Positions 9,960 to 29,031 of a stretch of 60,381 nucleotides of DNA are shown here, piece by piece; the stretch's first letter is position 1, and each line of letters opens with the position of its first letter. This DNA is from Nitrospiria bacterium (GTDB lineage Bacteria > Nitrospirota > Nitrospiria > JACQBZ01), in contig DATKAN010000035.1 in NCBI GenBank assembly GCA_035498035.1, positions 1 through 60,381 on the forward strand, written 5' to 3'. Both the position numbers and the translations under genes were made by a program. Below the pieces are notes generated by a model. It had not been told where the DNA came from and ran no database searches. It saw nothing but the letters and a program-made list of their open reading frames with translations.

Positions 9960-11675
9960 TCAATCCTTCTTCAATCCCCAGGGCGATTCGTCCAACCATC
10001 GGTTCAGGTCGGCGAACGGGAGAGGACGGCCCATGTAATAGCCCTGAGCGGCGTCGCAACCCAGTTCGATCAGTCGTTGATAGGTTTCCTGGTTTTCCAC
10101 GCCTTCCGCCACGACCTTTATGCCCATGTTGTGCCCCAACTCGATCGTCGAACGGACGATCACCGCGTCGTTGGGGTCCTTGGCCATGTTGATGACAAAG
10201 GCCTTGTCGATTTTGATCGCGTCCACCGGAAGTTTTTTTAGATAGGCCAGGGATGAATACCCGGTCCCGAAGTCGTCGATGGAAAATCGGATGCCCGTCC
10301 CGTGGACTTTGGACAGGATCTCCAGGGCCCGTGCCGGATCGGCCATGATCGCGCTTTCGGTAATCTCCAGCTCCAGCCGTTCCGGCGATCCCCCGCGCGC
10401 CCGCATCAATTCCGCGAGCTGGCCGGGCAGCCGTGCATCATGGAGGTTGCGGGCCGACAGGTTGATCGACACCGTGAGGGGCTTTCCCGCCCGCCGCAAA
10501 ACCCCGTCATCGCTCAGGGCCGCATGGAGAACCCAATGCGTGAGAGGGCCGATCAACCCGGTCTGCTCCGCCGGCCCGATAAATTGTTCGGGAGAAATAA
10601 AACCGTATTCCGGATGCTGCCAGCGCACCAGCGCCTCCACCCCGATCACGCGACCGGTCGTCAGATTGATCTTCGGCTGGTAGTGCAGGAGCAATTGGTT
10701 ATGGTCGATGGCGTGGCGCAGCGCCCCCATCAGCGCCAGCCGTCGGGGGCTGTGTTGATCCAGCTCCGCCGCATAAACGGCGTATCCGCTGCCGGTCCGT
10801 TTGGCCTCGTACATCGCCACATCGGCGCGCTGGAAGAGCGTCTCGGCGTCCGTTCCATGATCCGGGTAGAGCGCGATGCCGATACTGGCTTCAACGGCGA
10901 TGGGCAGGTTTTCGATCGCAAAGGGTTCTTCCAAGGATTTCAGAATCTTTTGGACTACCATTGTGATATGCTCCGCCGCAGCCAGACTGGGCAATACAAC
11001 GGCAAACTCATCTCCGCCGAGACGGGAAACGAAGTCCGGTTCAAACAGAACGCGCTTGAGGCGTAATCCGACTTGAAAGATCAGGATATCGCCGTGATGA
11101 TGACCCAAGGTGTCGTTAATTTGCTTGAAGCGGTCCAGGTCCATGAGCAGCAAGGCCACGGCATGTTGGCCGTTCCTTCCGTCTACAATTGCCTGTTGCA
11201 GGCGTTCCAGGAGCTGGGTCCGGTTGGGAAGGGCGGTCAGAGGGTCATAATAGGCCAGATATTGTATCGTTCGCTCCGCCTGCTCCCGCCCTCTCCTGAC
11301 CTTGACTTCGCGCAACTCCCGTTCAATCGCGGGGACCAGCCGGGTGAGGTCATCCTTCATGACGTAGTCCTGGGCGCCGCTTTTCATGGCGGACACGGCG
11401 AGGTCTTCCCCAACCGTTCCCGACACGAGAATGAACGGGAGATCCAATCCGTTTTTCCGGATGAGCGCCAGGGCAGCCCGCGCGTTTAGTTTCTGCACGT
11501 CATCGTCGTAAAGGGCGATGTCCCAGGCCTGATCCTCAAGGGCCTTGGCCATCGCGGCGGGCGTGTTCACCCGTTTAACGATCGGATCGTAATTGGCCCT
11601 TCTCAGTTCACGGACGATCCGACGCGCGTCTTTTTCGGAATCCTCAATAATCAATATGCGAAGCGGATTACCCAT
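9960..11675 (-). CDS. Response regulator with GGDEF and EAL domains (cyclic-di-GMP turnover)
   Basis: A 571-residue cytoplasmic protein: REC domain (1-125), GGDEF domain (about 135-300) and EAL domain (about 310-565). The REC has acidic residues in LIIEDS, a phosphate-accepting Asp in IALYDDD and Lys in YVMKDD. The diguanylate cyclase site RLGGDEFAVVL (about 215) is intact, but the inhibitory I-site RxxD reads FEPD. The phosphodiesterase site has the EAL signature in GVEALVRW (about 346), then LEITES, DDFGTGYSSL and EGVENQ, all expected of an active enzyme. Which activity dominates is unclear. It stands alone between tRNA-Leu and priA with no kinase next to it. Confidence 0.93.
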   Translation of the reverse strand: MGNPLRILIIEDSEKDARRIVRELRRANYDPIVKRVNTPAAMAKALEDQAWDIALYDDDVQKLNARAALALIRKNGLDLPFILVSGTVGEDLAVSAMKSGAQDYVMKDDLTRLVPAIERELREVKVRRGREQAERTIQYLAYYDPLTALPNRTQLLERLQQAIVDGRNGQHAVALLLMDLDRFKQINDTLGHHHGDILIFQVGLRLKRVLFEPDFVSRLGGDEFAVVLPSLAAAEHITMVVQKILKSLEEPFAIENLPIAVEASIGIALYPDHGTDAETLFQRADVAMYEAKRTGSGYAVYAAELDQHSPRRLALMGALRHAIDHNQLLLHYQPKINLTTGRVIGVEALVRWQHPEYGFISPEQFIGPAEQTGLIGPLTHWVLHAALSDDGVLRRAGKPLTVSINLSARNLHDARLPGQLAELMRARGGSPERLELEITESAIMADPARALEILSKVHGTGIRFSIDDFGTGYSSLAYLKKLPVDAIKIDKAFVINMAKDPNDAVIVRSTIELGHNMGIKVVAEGVENQETYQRLIELGCDAAQGYYMGRPLPFADLNRWLDESPWGLKKD

Positions 11676-16003: not shown

Positions 16004-16675
16004 TTACATTTTGGGATCGAGCTCGATCAGGCCCTTTCGGATGGCGTGAATGGCGGCCTGGGTGCGGTCGTAGACGTGAAGCTTATGGAAGATGTTCCGG
16101 ACATGGTTTTTGACCGTCTTCTCGCTCAACTCGAGGACGTTGGCGATTTCCTTGTTCGTCTTTCCCTCGGCCACCAGCTTGAGAACCGTGATCTCCCGAT
16201 CGGTCAGGCCGTGCTCGAGGCGTCCCGGCCTTCGCCCCTTGCCCTCGGCCAGGAGCGAAAATTCATTCAGGATCTTGCTCGCCACCGACGGATGGATCAA
16301 CGACTCCCCCTCGGCGATGGCCCGGATGGCCTTGACGATCTGGCCGGAATCGGCGTCTTTGAGCAGGTAGCCGGTCGCCCCCGCCTTGACGAGATCGAAG
16401 ATATACTCCTCCTCGGCATACATCGTCAGGACCACGACGCCGATGTGGGGGTTTTCCCGTTTGATCTCGCGGGTGGCCTCCACGCCGTTCATCCGGGGCA
16501 TGCTGATGTCCATCAAAACCACGTCGGGAAGCAGCTGCCGGGCCTTCTCGACCGCCTCCACGCCGTCTTTGGCGACCCCCACCACCTCAATGTCTTCCTT
16601 GGTCTTCAAGATGGCCGAGAGGCCTTCCCGGACCACCTGATGATCATCGGCGATCAGCACTCTGATCTTGTTCAC
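16004..16675 (-). CDS. NarL/LuxR-family DNA-binding response regulator
   Basis: A 223-residue two-component regulator. The receiver domain (1-120) has acidic residues in IADDHQVVREG, the phospho-acceptor in VVLMDISMPRMNG, Thr in VLTMY and Lys in YLLKDA. The C-terminal LuxR-type helix-turn-helix (about 155-215) reads LTDREITVLKLVAEGKTNKEIA, then LSEKTVKNHVRNIFHKL. The gene overlaps the end of the upstream kinase gene by 32 nt, so the two are a cognate pair. Its targets cannot be told from the window. Confidence 0.93.
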   Translation of the reverse strand: MNKIRVLIADDHQVVREGLSAILKTKEDIEVVGVAKDGVEAVEKARQLLPDVVLMDISMPRMNGVEATREIKRENPHIGVVVLTMYAEEEYIFDLVKAGATGYLLKDADSGQIVKAIRAIAEGESLIHPSVASKILNEFSLLAEGKGRRPGRLEHGLTDREITVLKLVAEGKTNKEIANVLELSEKTVKNHVRNIFHKLHVYDRTQAAIHAIRKGLIELDPKM

Positions 16676-17720
16676 GAAGGAGTTGCTCCTTTCCCTCGAG
16701 CGGAACCCGAAGAACGATCTTGGTCCCCTGCCCGGGTTTGGTATCGATGACGGCCGTCCCGCCCAAAAGCCGGGCGCGCTCCATGATTCCCTTCAGTCCG
16801 AACGAGGCCCATTTTTCCGGATGCGACGATACCGCCTCGAGGTCGAATCCCCGTCCGTTGTCCGAGAGCGTCGTCCGGAGGTCCGATGCGCCGATGGTCA
16901 AATCCACCCCGATCCGCGTCGCCTTCGCATGCCGCTGGACGTTCGACAGGGCCTCTTGAATTATCCGAAACAGGAACATCTTGACCCGGGGCGGGATGCG
17001 GTGTTCGTCACCCCGGACCTTGAAATCGGTCCCGATCTGATACTGTTTAGAATACGTCTTCAGATAATTTCGGATGGCTGGAAGAAGCTCCATTCGGTCG
17101 AAATGCAAGGGCCGGAGATTGAAGACCACCTGACGGGCCTCTTCGATGGCGGCCCTCAAAAGGGCTCTCGTGTCCAGGATCAAAACCCGGCACTGCGCGG
17201 GATCCTTCTCCATGAGCTCGCTGCAGAGATCCAGCTTGTAATTGAGCCCCACCAGCGTCTGGACCAGTCCGTCGTGGATGTCCAGCGCGATTCGCGTCCG
17301 CTCCTCCGCGATGGCATGCTGGATCTCTCGCAGGTACAATCCATAAAGCGCCTGGTATTCCCGAAGGTGTTTCTCGATCTCCTCCTTGTCCTTGATGCGG
17401 GCCTCGATCAACTGCCACATGAACTTGGCGGTGGGCCCGCCGATCACGGCCACGTCTGTTCGCGGGAGTTTCCGGAGGCTCCGCTCCACCTTCGGATTGC
17501 CCGTCACATCGATGAGGAGATCCACCTTTTTAAGGCGGAGCAGCCGCTGGTAGTCTCTCGTCGTTGGAATCGAGAGGCGCTTGGCGAGCCGTATCCCGGG
17601 CGCGCGGGGCCTTCGGTCCGCCACCCCGATGATCTTGACCAAGGGGTCGGGATGGAAGATCTCGATGAGGGAGGTTCCGCCTCGTCCGGCTCCGATAATG
17701 GCGACATGGGTTTTGTTCAT
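16644..17720 (-). CDS. NarX-type histidine kinase with an N-terminal Rossmann (nucleotide-binding) domain
   Basis: A 358-residue soluble kinase. The N-terminal part (1-120) looks like a dinucleotide-binding Rossmann domain: VAIIGAGRGGTSLIEIF is a GxGxxG-type loop, followed by IIGVADRRP and LLIDVTGNP, as in Gfo/Idh or dehydrogenase-type folds. A coiled segment (KDKEEIEKHLREYQ) leads to the HisKA_3 dimerisation domain with the phospho-His in ALDIHDGLVQTL (about 146), then HATPase_c with EALSNVQRHA and SDNGRGFD. There is no membrane segment. The ATG at 17720 fits the Rossmann start; a TTG at 17753 is possible. A NAD(H)- or metabolite-sensing role is inferred. It is paired with the following NarL regulator. 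Confidence 0.88.
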   Translation of the reverse strand: MNKTHVAIIGAGRGGTSLIEIFHPDPLVKIIGVADRRPRAPGIRLAKRLSIPTTRDYQRLLRLKKVDLLIDVTGNPKVERSLRKLPRTDVAVIGGPTAKFMWQLIEARIKDKEEIEKHLREYQALYGLYLREIQHAIAEERTRIALDIHDGLVQTLVGLNYKLDLCSELMEKDPAQCRVLILDTRALLRAAIEEARQVVFNLRPLHFDRMELLPAIRNYLKTYSKQYQIGTDFKVRGDEHRIPPRVKMFLFRIIQEALSNVQRHAKATRIGVDLTIGASDLRTTLSDNGRGFDLEAVSSHPEKWASFGLKGIMERARLLGGTAVIDTKPGQGTKIVLRVPLEGKEQLLREQDQSADRR

Positions 17721-17766
17721 GGGAGCCGAGGATGAGCGCGCCGGCGGCCGCAATCGTCGGACGGCG

Positions 17767-19624: not shown

Positions 19625-20089
19625 TTAATCTCGAACGCCCTTCTTTTCGATTTCTTCGATCTTGGCCAATCGCCGGGCATGTCGTCCGCCGTCAAAGCCG
19701 GTCGTCAGCCACAAGCGAACGATCTCCAGCGCCGTCTTCTCCTCCAACACGCGTTGTCCCAAAACAAGAATGTTGGCATCGTTGTGCAGCCGGCTGACTT
19801 TCGCCGTAAACGGGTCGAAACACAGGGCCGCCCGCACCCCGGGAAACTTGTTGGCCACGATCGACATGCCGATTCCGGTTCCGCAGATCAGGATACCCCG
19901 CCGGACCCGCCCTTCCGAAACGGCCTGCGCCACGGGAACTCCATAGTCGGGGTAGTCGACCGAGTCATGGTTATGCGTCCCCATATCGGTAACCCCCAGG
20001 CCTTGGTCCTGAAGAAAATGGAGGATCTTGCCTTTCAAGTCAACGCCTGCATGATCGCTGGCGATGGCAATGTCGGTCATTTCACTCAT
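19625..20089 (-). CDS. rpiB: Ribose-5-phosphate isomerase B
   Basis: A 154-residue RpiB/LacAB-family isomerase interconverting ribose-5-phosphate and ribulose-5-phosphate. The conserved start [14 protein letters not shown] carries the substrate-binding [30 protein letters not shown] holds the catalytic Cys (CGTG) and anion hole. [19 protein letters not shown] gives the C-terminal helix. It is the first gene of the rpiB-glyA-nrdR-kinase-regulator row. A 14-bp palindrome lies just ahead of its start. Confidence 0.96.
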
Positions 20090-20169: not shown

Positions 20170-21384
20170 TTAGGTTGAGACCCCGTCCGGCTCTTTTCGC
20201 CGCTCGCCGAGTCGGCGGTCATGCTCTTGGGGATTGGTGGGAATGACCACGGTAAAGGCGGCCCCTTTTCCCGGCAGGGACTGAACATCGATGTAGCCAC
20301 GGTGGGCCTCGATGATCTGATGGCAGGTCAACAGACCCAGACCGCTGCCCTCGTGATGCTTGGTCGTGAAAAAGGGGTCAAAGAGTTTCGAGAGGTGTTC
20401 TTCCTCAATTCCGGACCCCGTGTCGATGACGGCCACCTCCAGCGCCATCCCGTTGTTTCCGTGGGCGGCTCGTCGACTGCGGACCGTGACCGTCCCCCGG
20501 TCCGTGGCCTGAATCGCGTTCAAAAGCAGGTTCATGAAGACCTGTTTCATTCGTTCCTGGTCCAACCAGGCGGTCGGAAGATCGGGATCAAAATCTTTCT
20601 TCAATACATTCAACTTTTTTTTGGCTTCCGGAACCAAAAGTGCGACCATGTCATCCAAGAGCTCGTTGAGGTGGGTTTCCTGGAAATGGTACTCGTCCTG
20701 CCCCGTGAAGCGGGAATACCGGAGCATCCGCGTGATGAGGTGGTGAATGCGATCCAACTCCTCGCACACCCTTCGGTAGAACTGGTCCCAATATTCCTTG
20801 TCCTTGGACTTCTCTTTATACTTTTGCGGGAGCATCTGGAGGAAAGCGCTCACCGCCGTCAACGGGTTGTTGATCTCGTGGGCCATGCCGGCCGCCAGGG
20901 TGCCGACGGCGGACAGCCGGTTGGCGCGGGCCATGCGTTTTGCGGTTTCGATCTTTTCGGCCTCAAGACGCTCCCGTTCCCGAATCAGGTAGAAGGTCTC
21001 GATCCCCTGGCGGATGACGTTCCGCAGATCGTCTTCGTTGTACGGCTTGGCCAGGTATCGGTAAACGTTTCCTTCATTGATGGCCTCGATCACGACATCC
21101 ATGTCGGAATAAGCCGTCATCAGCATGCGCACGGTGTCCGGATGATGCACCTTCACCTGCTTCAACAGTTCCACCCCGCTCAACCGCGGCATCCGCTGAT
21201 CCGTCAAGATGACCGCGATTTCATTCTCTCGCAGGATGCGCATGGCCTCTTCGCCGTTCTGGGCCGTGTGTAGGGTAAAATCCTCTTTGAACTGGAGGCG
21301 GAAAGTTTCCAGCGCCAGCGGCTCGTCATCGACATAGAGTACGGGATAACGCCGGTATTCTTCCTGACTCAACAACGGTTTCAT
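20170..21384 (-). CDS. Receiver-histidine kinase protein (cytoplasmic)
   Basis: A 404-residue protein with a receiver domain first (about 12-130: LYVDDEPLALE, phospho-Asp in VILTDQRMPRLSGVE, Lys in YLAKPYNEDD). A short helix follows, then a HisKA domain with AAGMAHEINNPLTAVSAF (His about 170), and a HATPase_c domain with VFMNLLLNAIQAT, DTGSGIEEEH and GSGLGLLTCHQI. No membrane segment is present. The tail carries an Arg-dense DRRLGERRKE. The ATG overlaps the stop of the hybrid kinase gene (ATGA), so the two are made together and probably form a phosphorelay. Confidence 0.93.
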   Translation of the reverse strand: MKPLLSQEEYRRYPVLYVDDEPLALETFRLQFKEDFTLHTAQNGEEAMRILRENEIAVILTDQRMPRLSGVELLKQVKVHHPDTVRMLMTAYSDMDVVIEAINEGNVYRYLAKPYNEDDLRNVIRQGIETFYLIRERERLEAEKIETAKRMARANRLSAVGTLAAGMAHEINNPLTAVSAFLQMLPQKYKEKSKDKEYWDQFYRRVCEELDRIHHLITRMLRYSRFTGQDEYHFQETHLNELLDDMVALLVPEAKKKLNVLKKDFDPDLPTAWLDQERMKQVFMNLLLNAIQATDRGTVTVRSRRAAHGNNGMALEVAVIDTGSGIEEEHLSKLFDPFFTTKHHEGSGLGLLTCHQIIEAHRGYIDVQSLPGKGAAFTVVIPTNPQEHDRRLGERRKEPDGVST

Positions 21385-24182
21385 CGGCTGTTCCCTTTAA
21401 CGGCCATGGGGGCGCCGGGCTTGGCCGTTTCCGCTCGGTCCGGCAATTGACGTTTCGGCAGCGTGATAACAAACTCGGCCCCCTTCTCTTCTTCGCTGCT
21501 GACCGTGATCTTCCCCCCGTGATTCTCGATGATCCTGTAACTGACCGAAAGACCCAGGCCGGTTCCCTGGCCGACCTCCTTTGTGGTAAAAAACGGCTCA
21601 AAAATCCGCCCAAGATGCTCCTTTTGGATACCCTTTCCGCTGTCGCGAACCGCGATATGAACCCGGTCGCCTTCCTCCCAGGTCCGTATCCAGATGTCGC
21701 CCTTCTCCGGAATCGCCTGGATCGCGTTTTGAAGAAGATTCATGAAAACCTGATTGATCTGCCCGGGAATGATCTCCACTGCCTCTTGGATGCCTAAGTC
21801 CCGGTGAACGGTGATCCGGCCCGTCATTTCGTGCTGGATCAGCTTCAACGTGGCCTCCAACCCCTCTTGAATGTCGACCCGTTTTGTGTACTGCTCGTCT
21901 TTACGGGCAAAGGTCTTCAGGTCCGTCACGATTCCCTCGGTGCGTTCCAGCCCAGACTTGACAATGTTGAGTGATTGCTCGATATCCTGAAGGAGTTTAT
22001 TGAATTGGGCGAGCACCTGCCGCGTCTCCGGCTGTTTTTCCAGCGCCTCGCGAACCTGCCCCAGGTAGCGTCGGAGATTGGAGAGGCTGCCCTTGGCAAA
22101 ACTCACGGGGTTGTTCACCTCGTGCGCAATACCGGCGACGAGCAATCCCAGGGCCGCCATCTTCTCGGAATGAACCAACTGGGTCTGGGTTTCTTGAAGC
22201 ATCTTCAGCGTCCGCTCCAGCTCTTCGCTCCGATTTTGAATTTCGCGCTCCAAACGACGAAGCTGAACCAGGGACCGAATTTTCGCCTTGAGCTCCTGGG
22301 CATTGAACGGTTTGGTGAGATAATCATCCGCGCCGAATTCCAGGCCTGATATCTTTTCGGAGAGCTCGGCCTTGGCGGTGAGCAGGATCACCGGGATATG
22401 CTTCGTATGGGGATCGCTTTTAATTTCCCGGCAGACCTGGTAGCCGTCCTTGCCCGGCATCATGACATCGGAGATGATGATGTCCGGGAGGTGGCGGGTC
22501 GCCAGTCCAACGCCCTCGATCCCATCCCGAGCCTGTAGGAGCTTGAATTCGTCCTGGAGCTGGAAGGCGATGAAGCTTCGCATGTCCGCGTTGTCTTCGA
22601 TCAGCAGGACCGTTTGTTCGATCGGGCCCGACGGAAATGGGAGGGGGGCCTGAATCGGCACGGGTTCTTTCAGGATATCGCTGGCGGAGTACTCCGCGGC
22701 CAAGCGCAGGGACCGCGTCCAATCCTCCGTCAAACGGCGTTCAGTTTCCCGCCGGTCCCGCGCCCGACGCGGTGAGGTACGCCGGTCCTCGGAGGCGGTG
22801 TTCGTCACCGGCAGCTCGAGGTCCGTCGGAAGCGTGAAGGTCATCACGGTACCCTGGCCCGGCTCGCTGTCGGCCCAAATCCGCCCGCGGTGGAGTTCCA
22901 CCAGTTCTTTGGCCAGGGCGAGTCCGATCCCGGTTCCCTCATATTTGCGGCTGGCCGAGGCATCCACCTGGGAAAACCGCTCGAAAATCTTCTCCTTATA
23001 CTCTTTTGGAATTCCAATACCCGTGTCGGCCACGGAAATCTGGACACCGTTCGCCGAGCCCTTACCTTCGTCCGAATGAGCCATTCCGCAACGCACGGTC
23101 ACCGCGCCCCCGGGCTCTGTAAATTTAATCGAGTTGAAGATCAGGTTTAGGAGCGCCCGTTCGACCTTTTCGCGGTCGCAGACCACCTTCGGCAGTCGTT
23201 CACCGTCAACGTACGAAAGTCGAATCTGCTTTTTCTCGGCCATCGGCGTTACCGAAACCACGATTCCCTTGACAAAATGGGCCAAATTGACCGGCTCGAG
23301 GTTAAGCGTCATTTTGCCGGCGTCGATCTTTGCAAGATCCAACAGGTTGTTGATCATCTTGAGCAGCCGGAGGGCGTTTTGGTGCATGATCTGGATGTGG
23401 CCCTGCTGCGTCTTGGAGACGTTCCCCAGCTCCCCCTTGAGAAGCGACTCCAGCGGCGCCAGAACAAGGGTCAACGGCGTCCGCAGCTCGTGCGAGACGT
23501 TGGCAAAAAATTGCGTCTTGATCGCGTCCAGCTCTTTGAGTTTTTCGTATGCCTTCTCCAAATTGTTCTTCGTTTCTTCTAAATTCACGTTGGTGTTTTT
23601 CAGCTCAAATCGGGCTTTGAACTCTCGATATCTCATTTTGTAAGAGAAGAATGTTGCAGTGGCCGCAATGATCATCGTCATGTTAAGAAAGAAGAGGTTG
23701 TTCAGAAATAGCGGCCACGACGTAATTTTCTCAAATAATACGATGGGAACAATGTAGGAAAGATCGATGGCCAAATACACTCCAGCCATTCGCCCCAAGC
23801 TCCATGGCATAAGCAGACTGAAGGCAAGAAACATGAGGTTCAGGCCGGCATAATAAGTACTGGTGTGGCCCCCTGTGTATTGAGTCATCGTCGAAATAAA
23901 AAAACTCATGGGCAATATGCTAAGGGCGCCTAAATAATAGGTGTAATTCTCCGGCGACTTTGTAAAGCACAAAATGAGCACGACGAGATTGACGGATGCA
24001 CTGATGATTCTCAACATCAGGAAAAAGCGGAAGTGATCTGGGGCAACGAAATAGTCTAAGACACTAAACGCAGGGAAAAAGGGGACAGCCAAAGAGCAAA
24101 TAATCTTTATTCGTGTAATACTTAGAGAGCGGGTTTCTTGCTCGAATTCTTTCCTGATTTTTTTCGTATCACTTTCAATCAT
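21381..24182 (-). CDS. Membrane hybrid histidine kinase with two kinase cores and a central receiver
   Basis: About 933 residues. The N-terminus has about six hydrophobic helices (residues 25-195) with an unusual polar loop, [17 protein letters not shown], between them. Then come a coiled coil and kinase core 1 ([46 protein letters not shown]). An Arg-rich linker ([18 protein letters not shown]) leads to a receiver ([26 protein letters not shown]), a second coiled coil, and kinase core 2 ([41 protein letters not shown]). I chose ATG 24182; a GTG at 24200 lies too close to the Shine-Dalgarno-like AAGG. The membrane part may sense a hydrophobic ligand (inference). Confidence 0.92.
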
Positions 24183-24202
24183 ACTATCTTGTCCGTACAC
24201 CC

Positions 24203-27163
24203 TTAAGCCTTATACCCAATGGCAATTAATCCCTGGCGCGGATTACCGAAGGTCTCGAACATTTGAATATGTGTGAACCCGGAGTCTTTTAGCAGTCCGC
24301 TTAATTCCTCTGCATTGTAGAACTTGAACGTCTTTTCTTCCTCAAGGTCGGTTAAATAGGCAGCGGAATTTATGTAATGCTGCACGGCTATCAATAACTC
24401 CTCTTTATTTTTATCTTTAAAATGCGGCAGATCATCTTGGGTCTTAATTTTCTCGATTAAGGCATGTATGGGCTTTGACATATCTGTATCCGGTTTTAAC
24501 GAAGATAAAACAATCTTGCCTCCAGGTTTTAAGATTCTGAAGCATTCCCGGAGTGTTATTTTAGGAGTTTTAATGTACGATATAAACAGACTCGCCAGAA
24601 TCTTATCAATACTATGATCTCTAAATGGCAACTTCAGCGGCCTGCCGACAGAATCGAGATCCGCCGTTATGTAGCCGAGATCGGAGAGAGACCGCCCAGC
24701 GGCTCCGATGCTTTCTTTATGCTTCTGCCTGGCTTTCAGCAAGGCCTCTTTCACGAAGTCAACCATGATTATCTTTGCACTGCGGCGGGGATCGACCGAC
24801 GGTCCTGAGATTGGACCCTTCTCCAGATAGCACTGTATAAAATTGCCGGTTCCTCCCCCTAGATCGATGACCAAATCGGTGTCCCTTATCTGGAGCAACT
24901 CCACCTGTTTTTCCATCAGTTCGATATACTCGTCAGTCAAGGATATCAGGTCAAAACCCAGTTCTTCTTTTTCTTGCCCAAGCAAATAAGTGCGCCAGTA
25001 ATCCATAAAGTCGATGTCTTTTTGTCGGACTCGCGACCATTCTGCCTTTTCCTGCACTCCTCTCTGAACTGATGACGGAATCCTCGGAACAACATCAGAA
25101 TGGTAAAGCTGTTTCCAAACGCACTTCGTGATCAGCTTGAACACCTCAATCGCTTCATCGCTTGTCCTTACAATATGACCCCAAGGAACTTCATAAACTT
25201 GCCGCAAGCCTCTCGATTTAATGCTCATGATGTCATAAATTCTATTCTTGTTGATCCAATAGTCAAACTTTCCATAAATCCATGTAATCGGTATTTCTAA
25301 TTTTGCCATGTCTCTTCGGGCATCTTCCAGATCGGCCATATTATTCAATTCAATATCACGGCAATAATTGTCAAGGTTCACCATGTGACCCAACACCTGT
25401 TTTACAGACAGTTTCTCCCCTTGCCTAAACCTTGTCAAATAATCGATACCCCCTGTTGAATTCTTCATTAGATCATCAGGATCGGATGCCCCCATGCAGC
25501 TGATCCAGCAGCGAATGTCCTTCCCTTTATCTGATAAAACTGCTTTTCGGGCAGCAACCGATGCCATGCTAAAGGAAATTATAACAATACCGGAAGAAAA
25601 AAATGCGCGGTTCTTTTTTGCATATTCCACAGTCGTTCCGATGTCATCGGCTAACTGTGTCAAGGTATAATGAACCATCTCCTTTCCATTGGTCCTACAC
25701 TCCTTGTCGTTGTAACTTTCCCCTAGGCATCTTATTCCATCGAACCGAATCACGACCACATCCTGTTTATATTTTTTAAAAGTCTCAACGATCGTCATGG
25801 CCAAAAGTCCTGTGGTTTCCTTCCTCCTTGCAAATGCGGGTGGAATGATAACCACGGGAGCACTGACCTTCCGGTCTGTTTTTTTTATGTCAAACGTGGT
25901 GTTGACGACGGCAACGATTTCCTCGCCTTTTTTATTATAATACCTCGCCAATTGGATTCGCGGGTGAATACCCAGGACCCTCTTTAAAACATTTTCGCCC
26001 GCTTCAAGGACGATTTTGGCGGTTTGGGTAATTTGTGATATAAAAGGGGCCCTATTATGATCGTTAATATCGGCATCGGCCCGCTTAAGTTCAAACGGCT
26101 GGCGATCCACATGGAATTTAAGCCCAACTTTTACCCGATTTTCACTAATAGGGGTGACGTGAACCACCTTGGCGTTTTCCCGTCGCTGGATTTCCTGTCC
26201 CTTAATAATATTAATCTGTTGGATGATTTCGCCCGGTGAGAAATAACCGCCGTAGAGCGGAACATGAAAGGACAACCCCGAAGAGTTAAATTCAACGATT
26301 TGATGGGTCAAGCATTCATTTCCCGCTTCGCCTAAACGTAATTCAACGTTGTCACGATCGTTTTTCCCGTTTGATTCGCTATAATAGCGCGTTTCGACCC
26401 GTCGCTCCTCAAAATAGATCACGTCCGGTTTTGTAATGGTTAATGAATCGTTCCCTGTATATTTGACGGTCGCCTCGAAAAAGTACGACATATCTTGATG
26501 CGTCATCCCCAAATAGAGATGATCGTATCTGCCAATCCCCCCCTGAGTGGAGTTATCCGGAAGTTTTAATGACAGGTGGTATTTTCCGACCTCCTGAAGC
26601 CGCGCCATCACCATCATGAAATGACCGGACCAAAAAATCTGAATCGGCGCCTGCCGTTGGGAAGCCGCGCGGAAAATCATAGCGATGGCATCAAGATCAC
26701 AAAATGGCTTTAGATTTTGTACGGAGGAATTCGACTTTTTTTGAAAGTCACTGAGCGTCTCGTTAAAACCGTGATTTAAGACATAGCTCCTAAGGGTTTT
26801 CTTTTGGTCAGTGTGAAGTTCTAAAAACCGCACCCCCATCCCACGGAACCGACCGTTCCCTTCATCTTTAACATAAACGACTTCACCCAGAAAATTGATC
26901 GGATCCGGAACATTCGGGACAAAAAACTTTGCCTTTAAAGGATCGGTTTGCTCCTTGGACCCCCTGGTTACTACAAATAAACCCGATGTACTCAGATTGA
27001 GGACGTTGCCGAATGGTTCAGTCTGTTGTTCATGTTCAATGATGGGAAGGTAACAGTTTTTTCGAAAGTATTCTCGATAGTCGCTTTTTGGAAACCTCTT
27101 GGTAGCTTCCGGCTGGGGCTGGTTTATCATTTCGTGTTGGCCATGAAACGGATTATGATTCAA
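24203..27163 (-). CDS. PilZ - alpha/beta hydrolase (LuxD-like) - SAM methyltransferase fusion protein
   Basis: A 986-residue soluble fusion. A PilZ domain (25-130) has a full cyclic-di-GMP motif: R30xxxR34 and N56xS58xxG61. A YcgR-like segment and a second, degenerate PilZ (RVETR at about 254, EFNSSG) follow. Next is an alpha/beta-hydrolase (about 395-700) with PVVIIPPAFARR, IRFDGIRCLGES, a nucleophile-elbow-like SFSMASVAARKA (about 530) similar to LuxD acyl-ACP thioesterases, and a late His in PWGHIVRTSDEA. The C-terminal methyltransferase (about 735-986) has VIDLGGGTGNF and ECFRILKPGGKIVLSSL. The start is TTG overlapping the acyl-CoA dehydrogenase stop; ATG 27130 is possible. Base composition is AT-richer than average. 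Confidence 0.87.
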   Translation of the reverse strand: MNHNPFHGQHEMINQPQPEATKRFPKSDYREYFRKNCYLPIIEHEQQTEPFGNVLNLSTSGLFVVTRGSKEQTDPLKAKFFVPNVPDPINFLGEVVYVKDEGNGRFRGMGVRFLELHTDQKKTLRSYVLNHGFNETLSDFQKKSNSSVQNLKPFCDLDAIAMIFRAASQRQAPIQIFWSGHFMMVMARLQEVGKYHLSLKLPDNSTQGGIGRYDHLYLGMTHQDMSYFFEATVKYTGNDSLTITKPDVIYFEERRVETRYYSESNGKNDRDNVELRLGEAGNECLTHQIVEFNSSGLSFHVPLYGGYFSPGEIIQQINIIKGQEIQRRENAKVVHVTPISENRVKVGLKFHVDRQPFELKRADADINDHNRAPFISQITQTAKIVLEAGENVLKRVLGIHPRIQLARYYNKKGEEIVAVVNTTFDIKKTDRKVSAPVVIIPPAFARRKETTGLLAMTIVETFKKYKQDVVVIRFDGIRCLGESYNDKECRTNGKEMVHYTLTQLADDIGTTVEYAKKNRAFFSSGIVIISFSMASVAARKAVLSDKGKDIRCWISCMGASDPDDLMKNSTGGIDYLTRFRQGEKLSVKQVLGHMVNLDNYCRDIELNNMADLEDARRDMAKLEIPITWIYGKFDYWINKNRIYDIMSIKSRGLRQVYEVPWGHIVRTSDEAIEVFKLITKCVWKQLYHSDVVPRIPSSVQRGVQEKAEWSRVRQKDIDFMDYWRTYLLGQEKEELGFDLISLTDEYIELMEKQVELLQIRDTDLVIDLGGGTGNFIQCYLEKGPISGPSVDPRRSAKIIMVDFVKEALLKARQKHKESIGAAGRSLSDLGYITADLDSVGRPLKLPFRDHSIDKILASLFISYIKTPKITLRECFRILKPGGKIVLSSLKPDTDMSKPIHALIEKIKTQDDLPHFKDKNKEELLIAVQHYINSAAYLTDLEEEKTFKFYNAEELSGLLKDSGFTHIQMFETFGNPRQGLIAIGYKA

Positions 27164-28485
27164 AATCCATATTCTTTTGCCAGCTCTCGATAGATGATGG
27201 TCTTATGGATCGGCGATGGACCTTCGTATATCTGCATGAGCTTGGCGTCTCTCATCAACTTTTCCATCGGGTAATCCTTGGAATAACCGTACCCTCCCAG
27301 GAGATCCAGCGCCTCGCTTGTCACTTTCATCACAACGTCTCCGTTAAAATCCTTCGCCATGGAGGATTCCTTACCATAACGATAACCTTGATCGTGGGCC
27401 CAGGCTGCCCGCCAAGCCAGGAAGCGGGCGGCCTCTATCTGGGTGGCCATGTCGGCCAGTCTGAACTGAACATACTGAAAGTTCGCGAGCGATTGATTAA
27501 ACTGGACCCGTTTCTGCGCATGCCGCAAGGCATGCTCCATCGCGGTCCTTGCGATCCCCACCGATCCAGCGGCAACATTGATTCGCGATTTCGATATGGA
27601 CTGCAACGCAATCTTGTATCCTTCGCCTTCAGCCCCGATCCGATTTTCGATGGGGATCTTGACATCCTCAAAAAATATCTCGGCGGTGTTCGATGCCCGT
27701 TGCCCCATCTTATTCAGGATCTTGCCGGTCTTGATCCCCTCGGAATCGGATGGCGTTAGGAAAGCCGTCAGTCCCTTTGTACCCTTGTTTTTATCCAACG
27801 TGGCGAACACGACATAATAATCGGCCACCCCGCCGTTTGTGATAAAGCATTTCGAACCGTTGAGAATGTAATGATCCCCTTTGAAATCGGCATGGGTCGA
27901 GATCCGGCTGGGGTCAGAGCCCGCATCCGGTTCCGTGAAGCAGAAGGAGACCAATGTTAGTTGACGGCAGTAGGGGATCAAAATTCTCCCTTTCTGCTCT
28001 TCGGTTCCGGCCAACAACAAGGGAGCGGTTCCAAGAACATTGATCATGATCGATGTTCCCATCGCCATGCATCCGGCAGCGATTTCTTCCGTCGCGATGG
28101 CTGTTTCAAAAACACCCAACCCTCCGCCGCCGTATTTCTTGGGAATGTAGTTCGTGAAAAGGCCCAGATCAAACGCCTTACGGACCACCTCCCATGGGAA
28201 TTCCCCTGTTCGGTCATAATAAGCGGCCACGGGGACAATTTCCCTTTGGGTAAATGCCCTGACGCTGTCCCGCAAGGCCTTCTGGTCGGGTGTAAGTTCA
28301 AAATTTATTCGAATCGGCGCCGTGGTTTCGGAAGTCTTCCGCCCCTGAAATCGCTCTGGCGAGATCAGTCGCCTCCGTTCAGGGGAATACGCTCCCGACC
28401 GCATCCGCCGGGAAGCGATTCGACGTTCCCGGAATGGGATCTCCACACTTCCGTTCCGGCGTTCATAGAATGCCAAAGTGATCAT
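27160..28485 (-). CDS. Acyl-CoA dehydrogenase with an Arg-rich N-terminal extension
   Basis: A 441-residue flavoenzyme that introduces an alpha-beta double bond into acyl-CoA. The family blocks are FCFTEPDAGSDPSRISTHAD (FAD/substrate), FITNGGVADYYVV, RINVAAGSVGIARTAMEHAL, and DLLGGYGYSKDYPMEKLMRD with the probable catalytic Glu in QIYEGPS, where MCAD-type enzymes have YEGT. The first 57 residues are an added Arg-dense segment (FRERRIASRRMRSG, SPERRRL) of unknown role. GGGAGA precedes the ATG. It is the first gene of the four-gene row and overlaps the fusion gene by 4 nt, suggesting its product feeds the hydrolase/methyltransferase. Confidence 0.93.
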   Translation of the reverse strand: MITLAFYERRNGSVEIPFRERRIASRRMRSGAYSPERRRLISPERFQGRKTSETTAPIRINFELTPDQKALRDSVRAFTQREIVPVAAYYDRTGEFPWEVVRKAFDLGLFTNYIPKKYGGGGLGVFETAIATEEIAAGCMAMGTSIMINVLGTAPLLLAGTEEQKGRILIPYCRQLTLVSFCFTEPDAGSDPSRISTHADFKGDHYILNGSKCFITNGGVADYYVVFATLDKNKGTKGLTAFLTPSDSEGIKTGKILNKMGQRASNTAEIFFEDVKIPIENRIGAEGEGYKIALQSISKSRINVAAGSVGIARTAMEHALRHAQKRVQFNQSLANFQYVQFRLADMATQIEAARFLAWRAAWAHDQGYRYGKESSMAKDFNGDVVMKVTSEALDLLGGYGYSKDYPMEKLMRDAKLMQIYEGPSPIHKTIIYRELAKEYGF

Positions 28486-28681: not shown

Positions 28682-29031
28682 TGGTGGAGGCGGCGGGAGT
28701 TGAACCCGCGTCCGAAGAACTTCAGCCCCAGGTGACTACATGCATAGTGGCTGTTTTCGATTCGCCGCTCTTCGGGTACAGCAACAAACCCGAAGAGCCG
28801 CTAGTCCAGTTTGTCTCGCTCCGCGGGCCTGGACGACCCGCGGAACCAGTCTGCTATCGTGACATCCGGTCTAATCGCACAGACGACAATTAGCTGGATG
28901 CGCCGCTATTAAGCAGCGAGGGCCAATTCTGAATTGGCAGTTGCTTGTTTCCACAGGTGTTTAACGAGCCCCTGTGGGACCTCGGCATGCCGCCCGAAAC
29001 CTCTTGATCCCCGTCGAATCCGGTCGCCCCC
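28682..29031 (-). ncRNA. ssrA: Transfer-messenger RNA (tmRNA)
   Basis: A 350-nt RNA. The 5' end GGGGGCG pairs with CGCCTCC before an encoded ACCA 3' end (one G-U). The tmRNA hallmark GGATTCGACGGGG is at the 5' end, and GTTCAACTCCCGCC gives the T-arm. The tag reading frame ends A-N-S-E-L-A-L-A-A followed by TAA; resumption may be at GCC (ANSELALAA) or two codons earlier (ATANSELALAA). The tag keeps the LAA degron. smpB lies just upstream in the same direction. A T-rich tract just after the 3' end (towards 28643) may end transcription. Confidence 0.95.

Follow-up and report, generated by a model that had tools for sequence, protein, structure and literature searches.

A bacterial locus in which enzymes of acyl chemistry directly precede histidine kinases raises the question of whether its genes work together, and, if so, whether the kinases sense what the enzymes make. 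Such a locus is found in the genome of a Nitrospiria bacterium (2.67 Mb, 99% complete), within a stretch of 60,381 nt (hereafter the window), where a unit of four minus-strand genes occupies positions 20170-28485. The unit was originally predicted to be a self-contained system for the synthesis of, and response to, a lipid signal. In this paper, we have examined its gene calls, domains and relatives, and have followed the exchange of its parts among the genomes of the phylum, sampled at one genome per species.

Gene calls and boundaries of the locus

The coordinates and Pfam assignments confirmed the predicted order of the four open reading frames (ORFs), i.e. an acyl-CoA dehydrogenase (ACAD), a multidomain fusion protein, a hybrid kinase and a receiver (Rec)-kinase. 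As listed, the ORFs overlap by 4 nt at 27160-27163 and 21381-21384 and are spaced by 2 nt at 24201-24202, in agreement with the predicted 4-nt overlaps or gaps of about 20 nt or less. Comparison with the relative in G001 (locus L034), however, indicates that the fusion protein probably starts at ATG 27130 (residue 12) and the hybrid kinase probably at ATG 24182 (residue 7), so that the first junction would become a gap of ~29 nt, beyond the predicted range, and the second one of ~20 nt, while the 4-nt overlap between the kinase and Rec-HK genes is kept.

The unit lies between two conserved minus-strand boundaries of the insertion site: upstream a tmRNA gene (28682-29031; Rfam RF00023, E 2e-76), found in the same place in G004 and G002, and downstream, by locus comparison, rpiB (19625-20089). 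No lux genes were found beside the LuxD-like hydrolase at this locus, the neighbours being the ACAD gene, the kinase genes, smpB and rpiB. Elsewhere in the window, a HisKA_3 histidine kinase with an N-terminal NAD(P)-binding Rossmann-like domain (16644-17753, minus strand) is paired with a NarL-like regulator (16004-16675); the pair is kept beside nrdR in close relatives, and the former is possibly a redox-sensing kinase.

Domain composition of the encoded proteins

The first gene (27160-28485, minus strand) encodes an ACAD of 441 aa with three Pfam ACAD domains (E<=2e-25) and the catalytic glutamate E421 in a YEG motif at 420-422. Its N-terminus is a 60-residue Arg-rich leader (FYERR...RERR...SPERRRL), and in the window and G001 this leader alone takes the place of the PilZ domain found in the ACADs of G005, G011 and G042. 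The window leader resembles those preceding PilZ in the exchanged enzymes of relatives, which suggests that the window ACAD may once have carried a PilZ domain that has since been lost.

The fusion protein (24203-27163, minus strand; 986 aa as listed) combines, by Pfam and profiles, a PilZ domain, a PilZ-like domain, a LuxD-like hydrolase and an S-adenosylmethionine (SAM) methyltransferase (MT). PilZ domain 1 (residues 30-129; 26777-27076; PF07238, E 3e-15) has intact R30xxxR34 and N56xS58xxG61 motifs, as predicted, and an alignment showed them to be invariant in all four full-length relatives. Alignment inspection further revealed a second, degenerate PilZ-like domain that the earlier reading had overlooked (residues ~250-362; 26078-26416), in which RxxxR is retained and DxSxxG is altered to ExNxxG. 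This domain was not called by Pfam on the window protein; used as a query, it finds PilZ-like regions in other synthases.

The hydrolase domain (residues ~405-690; 25094-25951) would have been rejected on the single sequence, whose match to PF02273 is sub-threshold (E 0.074), but the family profile settles its LuxD membership: its homologues match PF02273 at E 1e-19 to 1e-30, and for a profile of 12 homologues LuxD (PDB 1tht) is the first match among PDB chains, over the whole domain (E 8e-30). The Ser/Asp/His triad, the absence of which would have spoken against the original prediction, is present by alignment, with S532, D634 and H663 of the window protein aligned with Ser114, Asp211 and His241 of 1tht, which we take to be the LuxD catalytic triad. 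The C-terminal part is a class I SAM-dependent MT (residues 754-968; 24260-24904; PF13489/PF08241, E 1e-11), whose SAM motif D767-LGGGTG is intact and conserved among homologues. AlphaFold models of the catalytic and PilZ halves, from a two-sequence alignment, reached mean pLDDT values of 32 and 38 and were discarded.

The third gene (21381-24200, minus strand) encodes a membrane hybrid kinase of 939 aa, resolved by Pfam and hydropathy into a 6TM sensor, a histidine kinase (HK) module (H237), a Rec domain (D578) and a second HK module (H693); that it holds two complete HK modules around one Rec had also been overlooked. The sensor (residues ~24-190; 23631-24131), delimited by hydropathy and invariant columns, contains the conserved motifs LD....P and YAGLNL. 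The last gene (20170-21384, minus strand) encodes a soluble Rec-HK relay protein of 404 aa (D62, H169) with the LvrB/PhcR-type architecture by Pfam, which aligns with LvrB (PDB 8vc9) over residues 13-382 and matches NF047466 at E 3e-33. The gene order, domains and residues of the unit are thus established.

Conservation of gene order and insertion site

A search for the same four-gene order in other genomes had been proposed, and the order was indeed found: ACAD, fusion protein, hybrid kinase and Rec-HK follow one another in G001, G005 and G011, at 66%, 53% and 41% identity of the fusion protein, respectively, and are not scattered in these relatives. In G001 and G005 the unit is flanked by tmRNA and rpiB, just like that of the window, whereas G011 has it at another place; G004 has smpB-tmRNA-rpiB without a cassette between them, and G003 was left out of the site comparison because its contigs break at the insertion site. 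A contig scan with the fusion protein alone gave no match, and a second scan found only the G005 contig.

In other Nitrospirota, wherever the contig permits judgement, the membrane kinase gene usually follows the hydrolase-MT gene directly, with G290 as the exception. Two other families have a FabF-type KAS upstream of LuxD-MT, followed by membrane kinases. The LuxD-MTs of Nitrospira-like and other families are paired with 7TM-GAF kinases, and therefore a 6TM sensor is not required for an MT product. In other genera of the class, PilZ-PilZ-hydrolase-MT follows Rec/PAS modules within one protein, and the neighbouring genes code for a kinase, a sigma-54 regulator and a Rec-HD protein. In some 1400-aa homologues the hydrolase serine is, by inspection, apparently missing, including the one such protein that we read closely, so the hydrolase domain need not be catalytic everywhere. 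A single-chain LuxD-MT-kinase fusion in G312 (L092:8382-13307) was rejected as a likely frameshift, since its reading drops out of the conserved frame where the MT ends.

Exchange of upstream enzymes on a constant relay

A search with the Rec-HK profile detected this relay protein in 16 genomes out of 270 of the class, and the enzymes encoded upstream of it differ among them. In G002, which belongs to the same genus, the ACAD and LuxD-MT are replaced at the same site by a PilZ-PilZ-KAS II and an ACP-PilZ-4HBT thioesterase; the presence of this swapped cassette rules out simple loss of the fusion protein. The G002 kinase has a different sensor from that of the window, whereas its core is 83% and its Rec-HK 90-91% identical. 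The upstream enzyme is a PilZ-PhcB-like MT in G008, G027 and G036b, PilZ-FabH in G010, G023b and G050a, a PilZ-BioF/Kbl-type acyltransferase in G016 and G044a, a PilZ-HMG-CoA reductase in G023a, G036a, G042a and G050b, and PilZ-ACAD together with PilZ-aldehyde dehydrogenase in G042b. Nearly all exchanged enzymes are thus fused to PilZ, and most keep RxxxR and [DN]xSxxG.

Given the HMG-CoA reductase variants, the product of some lineages would not be a fatty-acyl compound. PilZ-HMG-CoA reductase adjoins a 7TM-GAF hybrid kinase and a Rec-HK at four loci (L118:6836-8506, L121:8282-9952, L123:8288-10045 and L128:6413-8071), which suggests a mevalonate-derived signal there. In G044 (L125), a PilZ-fused BioF/Kbl-type enzyme replaces PilZ-HMG-CoA reductase between apparently the same neighbours. 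G042 also encodes a PilZ domain fused to a TENA/CADD-type protein (L124:3561-4925), beside its PilZ-ACAD and PilZ-aldehyde dehydrogenase genes. The f9 genus encodes another hybrid kinase upstream of the exchanged synthase (L122:10066-13107, with an extra Rec; L124:1-3477; L127:2832-6512). The sensor of this additional kinase is 6TM where the synthase is the PhcB-like MT and 7TM in the other cases, matching that of the partner kinase.

Co-inheritance of enzyme and sensor

The relay is otherwise constant, and each enzyme is passed on and swapped together with its matching sensor. Over 17 kinase loci, sensor identity minus core identity averaged -14 points for pairs with the same enzyme and -36 for pairs with different enzymes, a mean difference of 21.5 points with a permutation p of 0.0004, where labels were shuffled over loci and relatedness was controlled only through the core. 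The 6TM sensor state agrees with an MT-bearing enzyme in all 17 loci; it requires five changes on the core tree, and all five independent contrasts are concordant, the sign test giving 0.0625, the minimum possible.

Individual pairs illustrate the pattern. Where the enzymes differ, kinases whose cores are 83-94% identical have sensors that are unrelated to each other, as G036b and G042b do at a core identity of 94%. G011 has the same enzyme as the window, and its hydrolase (56%) and sensor (62-64%) stand beside a PilZ domain 1 at 28%, an HK2 at 50% and a kinase core at 55% identity. G005, a genome of the same family as that of the window, shows the reverse: the hydrolase (45%) and sensor (49%) have both diverged from the window, whereas PilZ domain 1 and HK2 remain at 81% and 85%. 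Because the hydrolase and MT trees, built with distant outgroups, lacked resolution, our claim for this genome is limited to in-step divergence of hydrolase and sensor. Two comparisons are less neat: G042a and G036a have the same enzyme type and a 94% identical core, with a sensor identity of only 52%, and G042b and G050a have different enzymes at 63% sensor identity. Taken as a whole, the matched inheritance is evidence that the ligand of the sensor would be the product (or the substrate) of the enzyme.

Candidate ligand

A hint as to the nature of the ligand comes from 72,556 plasmid records. The best plasmid match of the G008 MT is in Paraburkholderia graminis (31.9%, E 3e-38), and the single match of the window 6TM sensor (E 4e-5) is the Paraburkholderia kinase encoded directly downstream of this same PhcB-like MT, with an hhalign probability of 99.2% over 197 columns. 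Two separate searches therefore led to adjacent genes of one MT-HK-RR-RR operon, and it is on this operon, not on Ralstonia PhcB or PhcS, that our labels PhcB-like and phc-like rest. Its gene order is similar to phcB-phcS-phcR-phcQ, a system for 3-hydroxy fatty-acid methyl esters in which the methyltransferase PhcB produces the ester, the membrane kinase PhcS detects it and PhcR relays the response (PMC8578825); PhcR is a Rec-HK (PMC13269768). By BLASTP the window MT shows no detectable PhcB-type character, with best E values of only 0.02-0.17 against PhcB-like MTs. That two MT types, LuxD-MT and PhcB-like, go with one sensor class suggests that the window product may be a methylated acyl compound, most simply a methyl ester.

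Proposed mechanism and alternative explanations

We favour, with a confidence somewhat above even, the reading that the unit is a Phc-like synthesis-and-response module, which would make a fatty-acid signal, probably a methyl ester, under the control of cyclic di-GMP (c-di-GMP) and sense it by the membrane kinase. The ACAD would adjust the acyl-CoA chain; the LuxD-like hydrolase, whose triad is intact by sequence, would cleave the thioester to the carrier and so set the acyl group free; and the fused MT would methylate that group, probably at the carboxylate, to yield the methyl ester. Judging from their motifs, the PilZ domains may let c-di-GMP set the activity or location of the enzyme. As the co-exchange of enzyme and sensor would have it, the product would reach the 6TM sensor in the membrane and thereby control HK-Rec-HK, from which, as in LvrA/LvrB and PhcS/PhcR, phosphate may be handed to the Rec-HK and then to an output. 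The product may serve as a signal between cells or be sensed in the membrane of the very cell that makes it.

Of the original prediction, the linked module is strongly supported, by the conserved order, the co-exchange of enzyme and sensor, the intact LuxD triad and the kinship of the sensor to a kinase that stands with a PhcB-like MT; the self-containment gained no support, as no output regulator or other transcriptional output is encoded in the four-gene unit of the window. Gating of the synthase by c-di-GMP is plausible because the motifs of PilZ domain 1 are complete, PilZ is fused to nearly all exchanged enzymes and the genome has ~25 GGDEF matches. These matches, together with a Rec-GGDEF-EAL protein encoded within the window (9960-11675, minus strand), make it likely that c-di-GMP is available; if gating is true, c-di-GMP would be linked directly to signal synthesis. 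By eye, the PhcB-like MT of Paraburkholderia (L130:7440-8846) looks faintly PilZ-like towards its N-terminus, and if this is real, c-di-GMP input may predate the present family.

The most serious alternative, though we consider it unlikely, is membrane-lipid homeostasis without a secreted signal, in which the enzymes alter the acyl chains of the membrane, whose resulting state is read by the kinase in a DesK-like manner. The enzymes are indeed of lipid type, the HMG-CoA reductase and ACAD variants suit lipid metabolism, and the sensors are embedded in the membrane without an evident periplasmic domain; yet matched swaps of enzyme and sensor within one genus and at one site fit chemical specificity better than bulk membrane state, and the kinship to the kinase paired with the PhcB-like MT also points away from homeostasis. 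Less probable still is nutrient sensing, in which the kinase would detect the substrate of the enzyme, e.g. exogenous fatty acids or esters, and control the pathway to which the enzyme belongs. ACAD is an enzyme of the beta-oxidation type, and substrate sensing would likewise make enzyme and sensor co-vary, but the 6TM class common to two MT types points to a common product, and the KAS II, FabH and ACP variants are biosynthetic, i.e. synthases rather than catabolic enzymes. Chance adjacency of unrelated lipid and signalling genes, for which one could cite the abundance of kinases and PilZ proteins in these genomes, is ruled out for practical purposes by the same order in three other genomes, kept across families at 41-66% identity, and is opposed also by the tight junctions, the synchronous swaps and the PilZ fusion of most exchanged enzymes.

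The Phc-like reading may be extended to a new signalling class, in which a constant HK-Rec-HK/Rec-HK relay would take exchangeable cassettes of a PilZ-fused, c-di-GMP-gated acyl or isoprenoid synthase and its matching sensor, so that recombination at a fixed locus would change the signal type in one step; we hold the arguments for and against this extension to be in balance. The joint swapping of synthase and receptor while the kinase core stays the same gives strong natural evidence of signal-receptor pairs, and the near-identical kinases with different sensors are ready-made test pairs. For this phylum, the literature that we found is mostly on AHL signalling; if confirmed, the present class would widen bacterial communication, among groundwater bacteria and relatives of nitrite oxidizers, by several signal chemistries.

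Comparison with known systems

A search of the open-access literature returned nothing relevant on PilZ-fused autoinducer synthases, and each known system resembles the unit in part. The PilZ-fused BioF/Kbl-family acyltransferases, which stand beside the kinase pair in two relatives, recall the CqsA/CqsS and LqsA/LqsS systems through the CqsA/LqsA superfamily; the likeness is a superfamily match only (the best NCBIfam model is BioF/Kbl-type, and the model for hydroxyketone synthases, at a score of 230, stays under its cut-off of 428), and the PilZ fusion sets them apart. The window hydrolase shares with LuxD, the lux acyl-transferase/thioesterase, the fold family and the aligned Ser, Asp and His, but it has no adjacent lux genes, is fused to PilZ and MT, and is paired with kinases. 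LvrA/LvrB of Leptospira likewise consists of a hybrid kinase followed by a Rec-HK in one operon, and the window Rec-HK aligns with LvrB over its full length; LvrA and LvrB are, however, cytoplasmic, LvrA having a PAS sensor, and a linked synthase is not reported there (PMC5863495), whereas the window kinase has a 6TM sensor. In contrast to the Phc system of Ralstonia and other Burkholderiaceae, the unit of the window has an MT whose sequence is not of the PhcB type and which is joined to PilZ and a LuxD-like hydrolase; its kinase is an HK-Rec-HK, and it has an ACAD in addition. The Phc system nevertheless also unites a methyltransferase, a membrane histidine kinase and a Rec-HK in one operon, the window Rec-HK has the architecture of PhcR, and the window sensor is homologous to the kinase of the phc-like MT-HK-RR-RR operon of Paraburkholderia.
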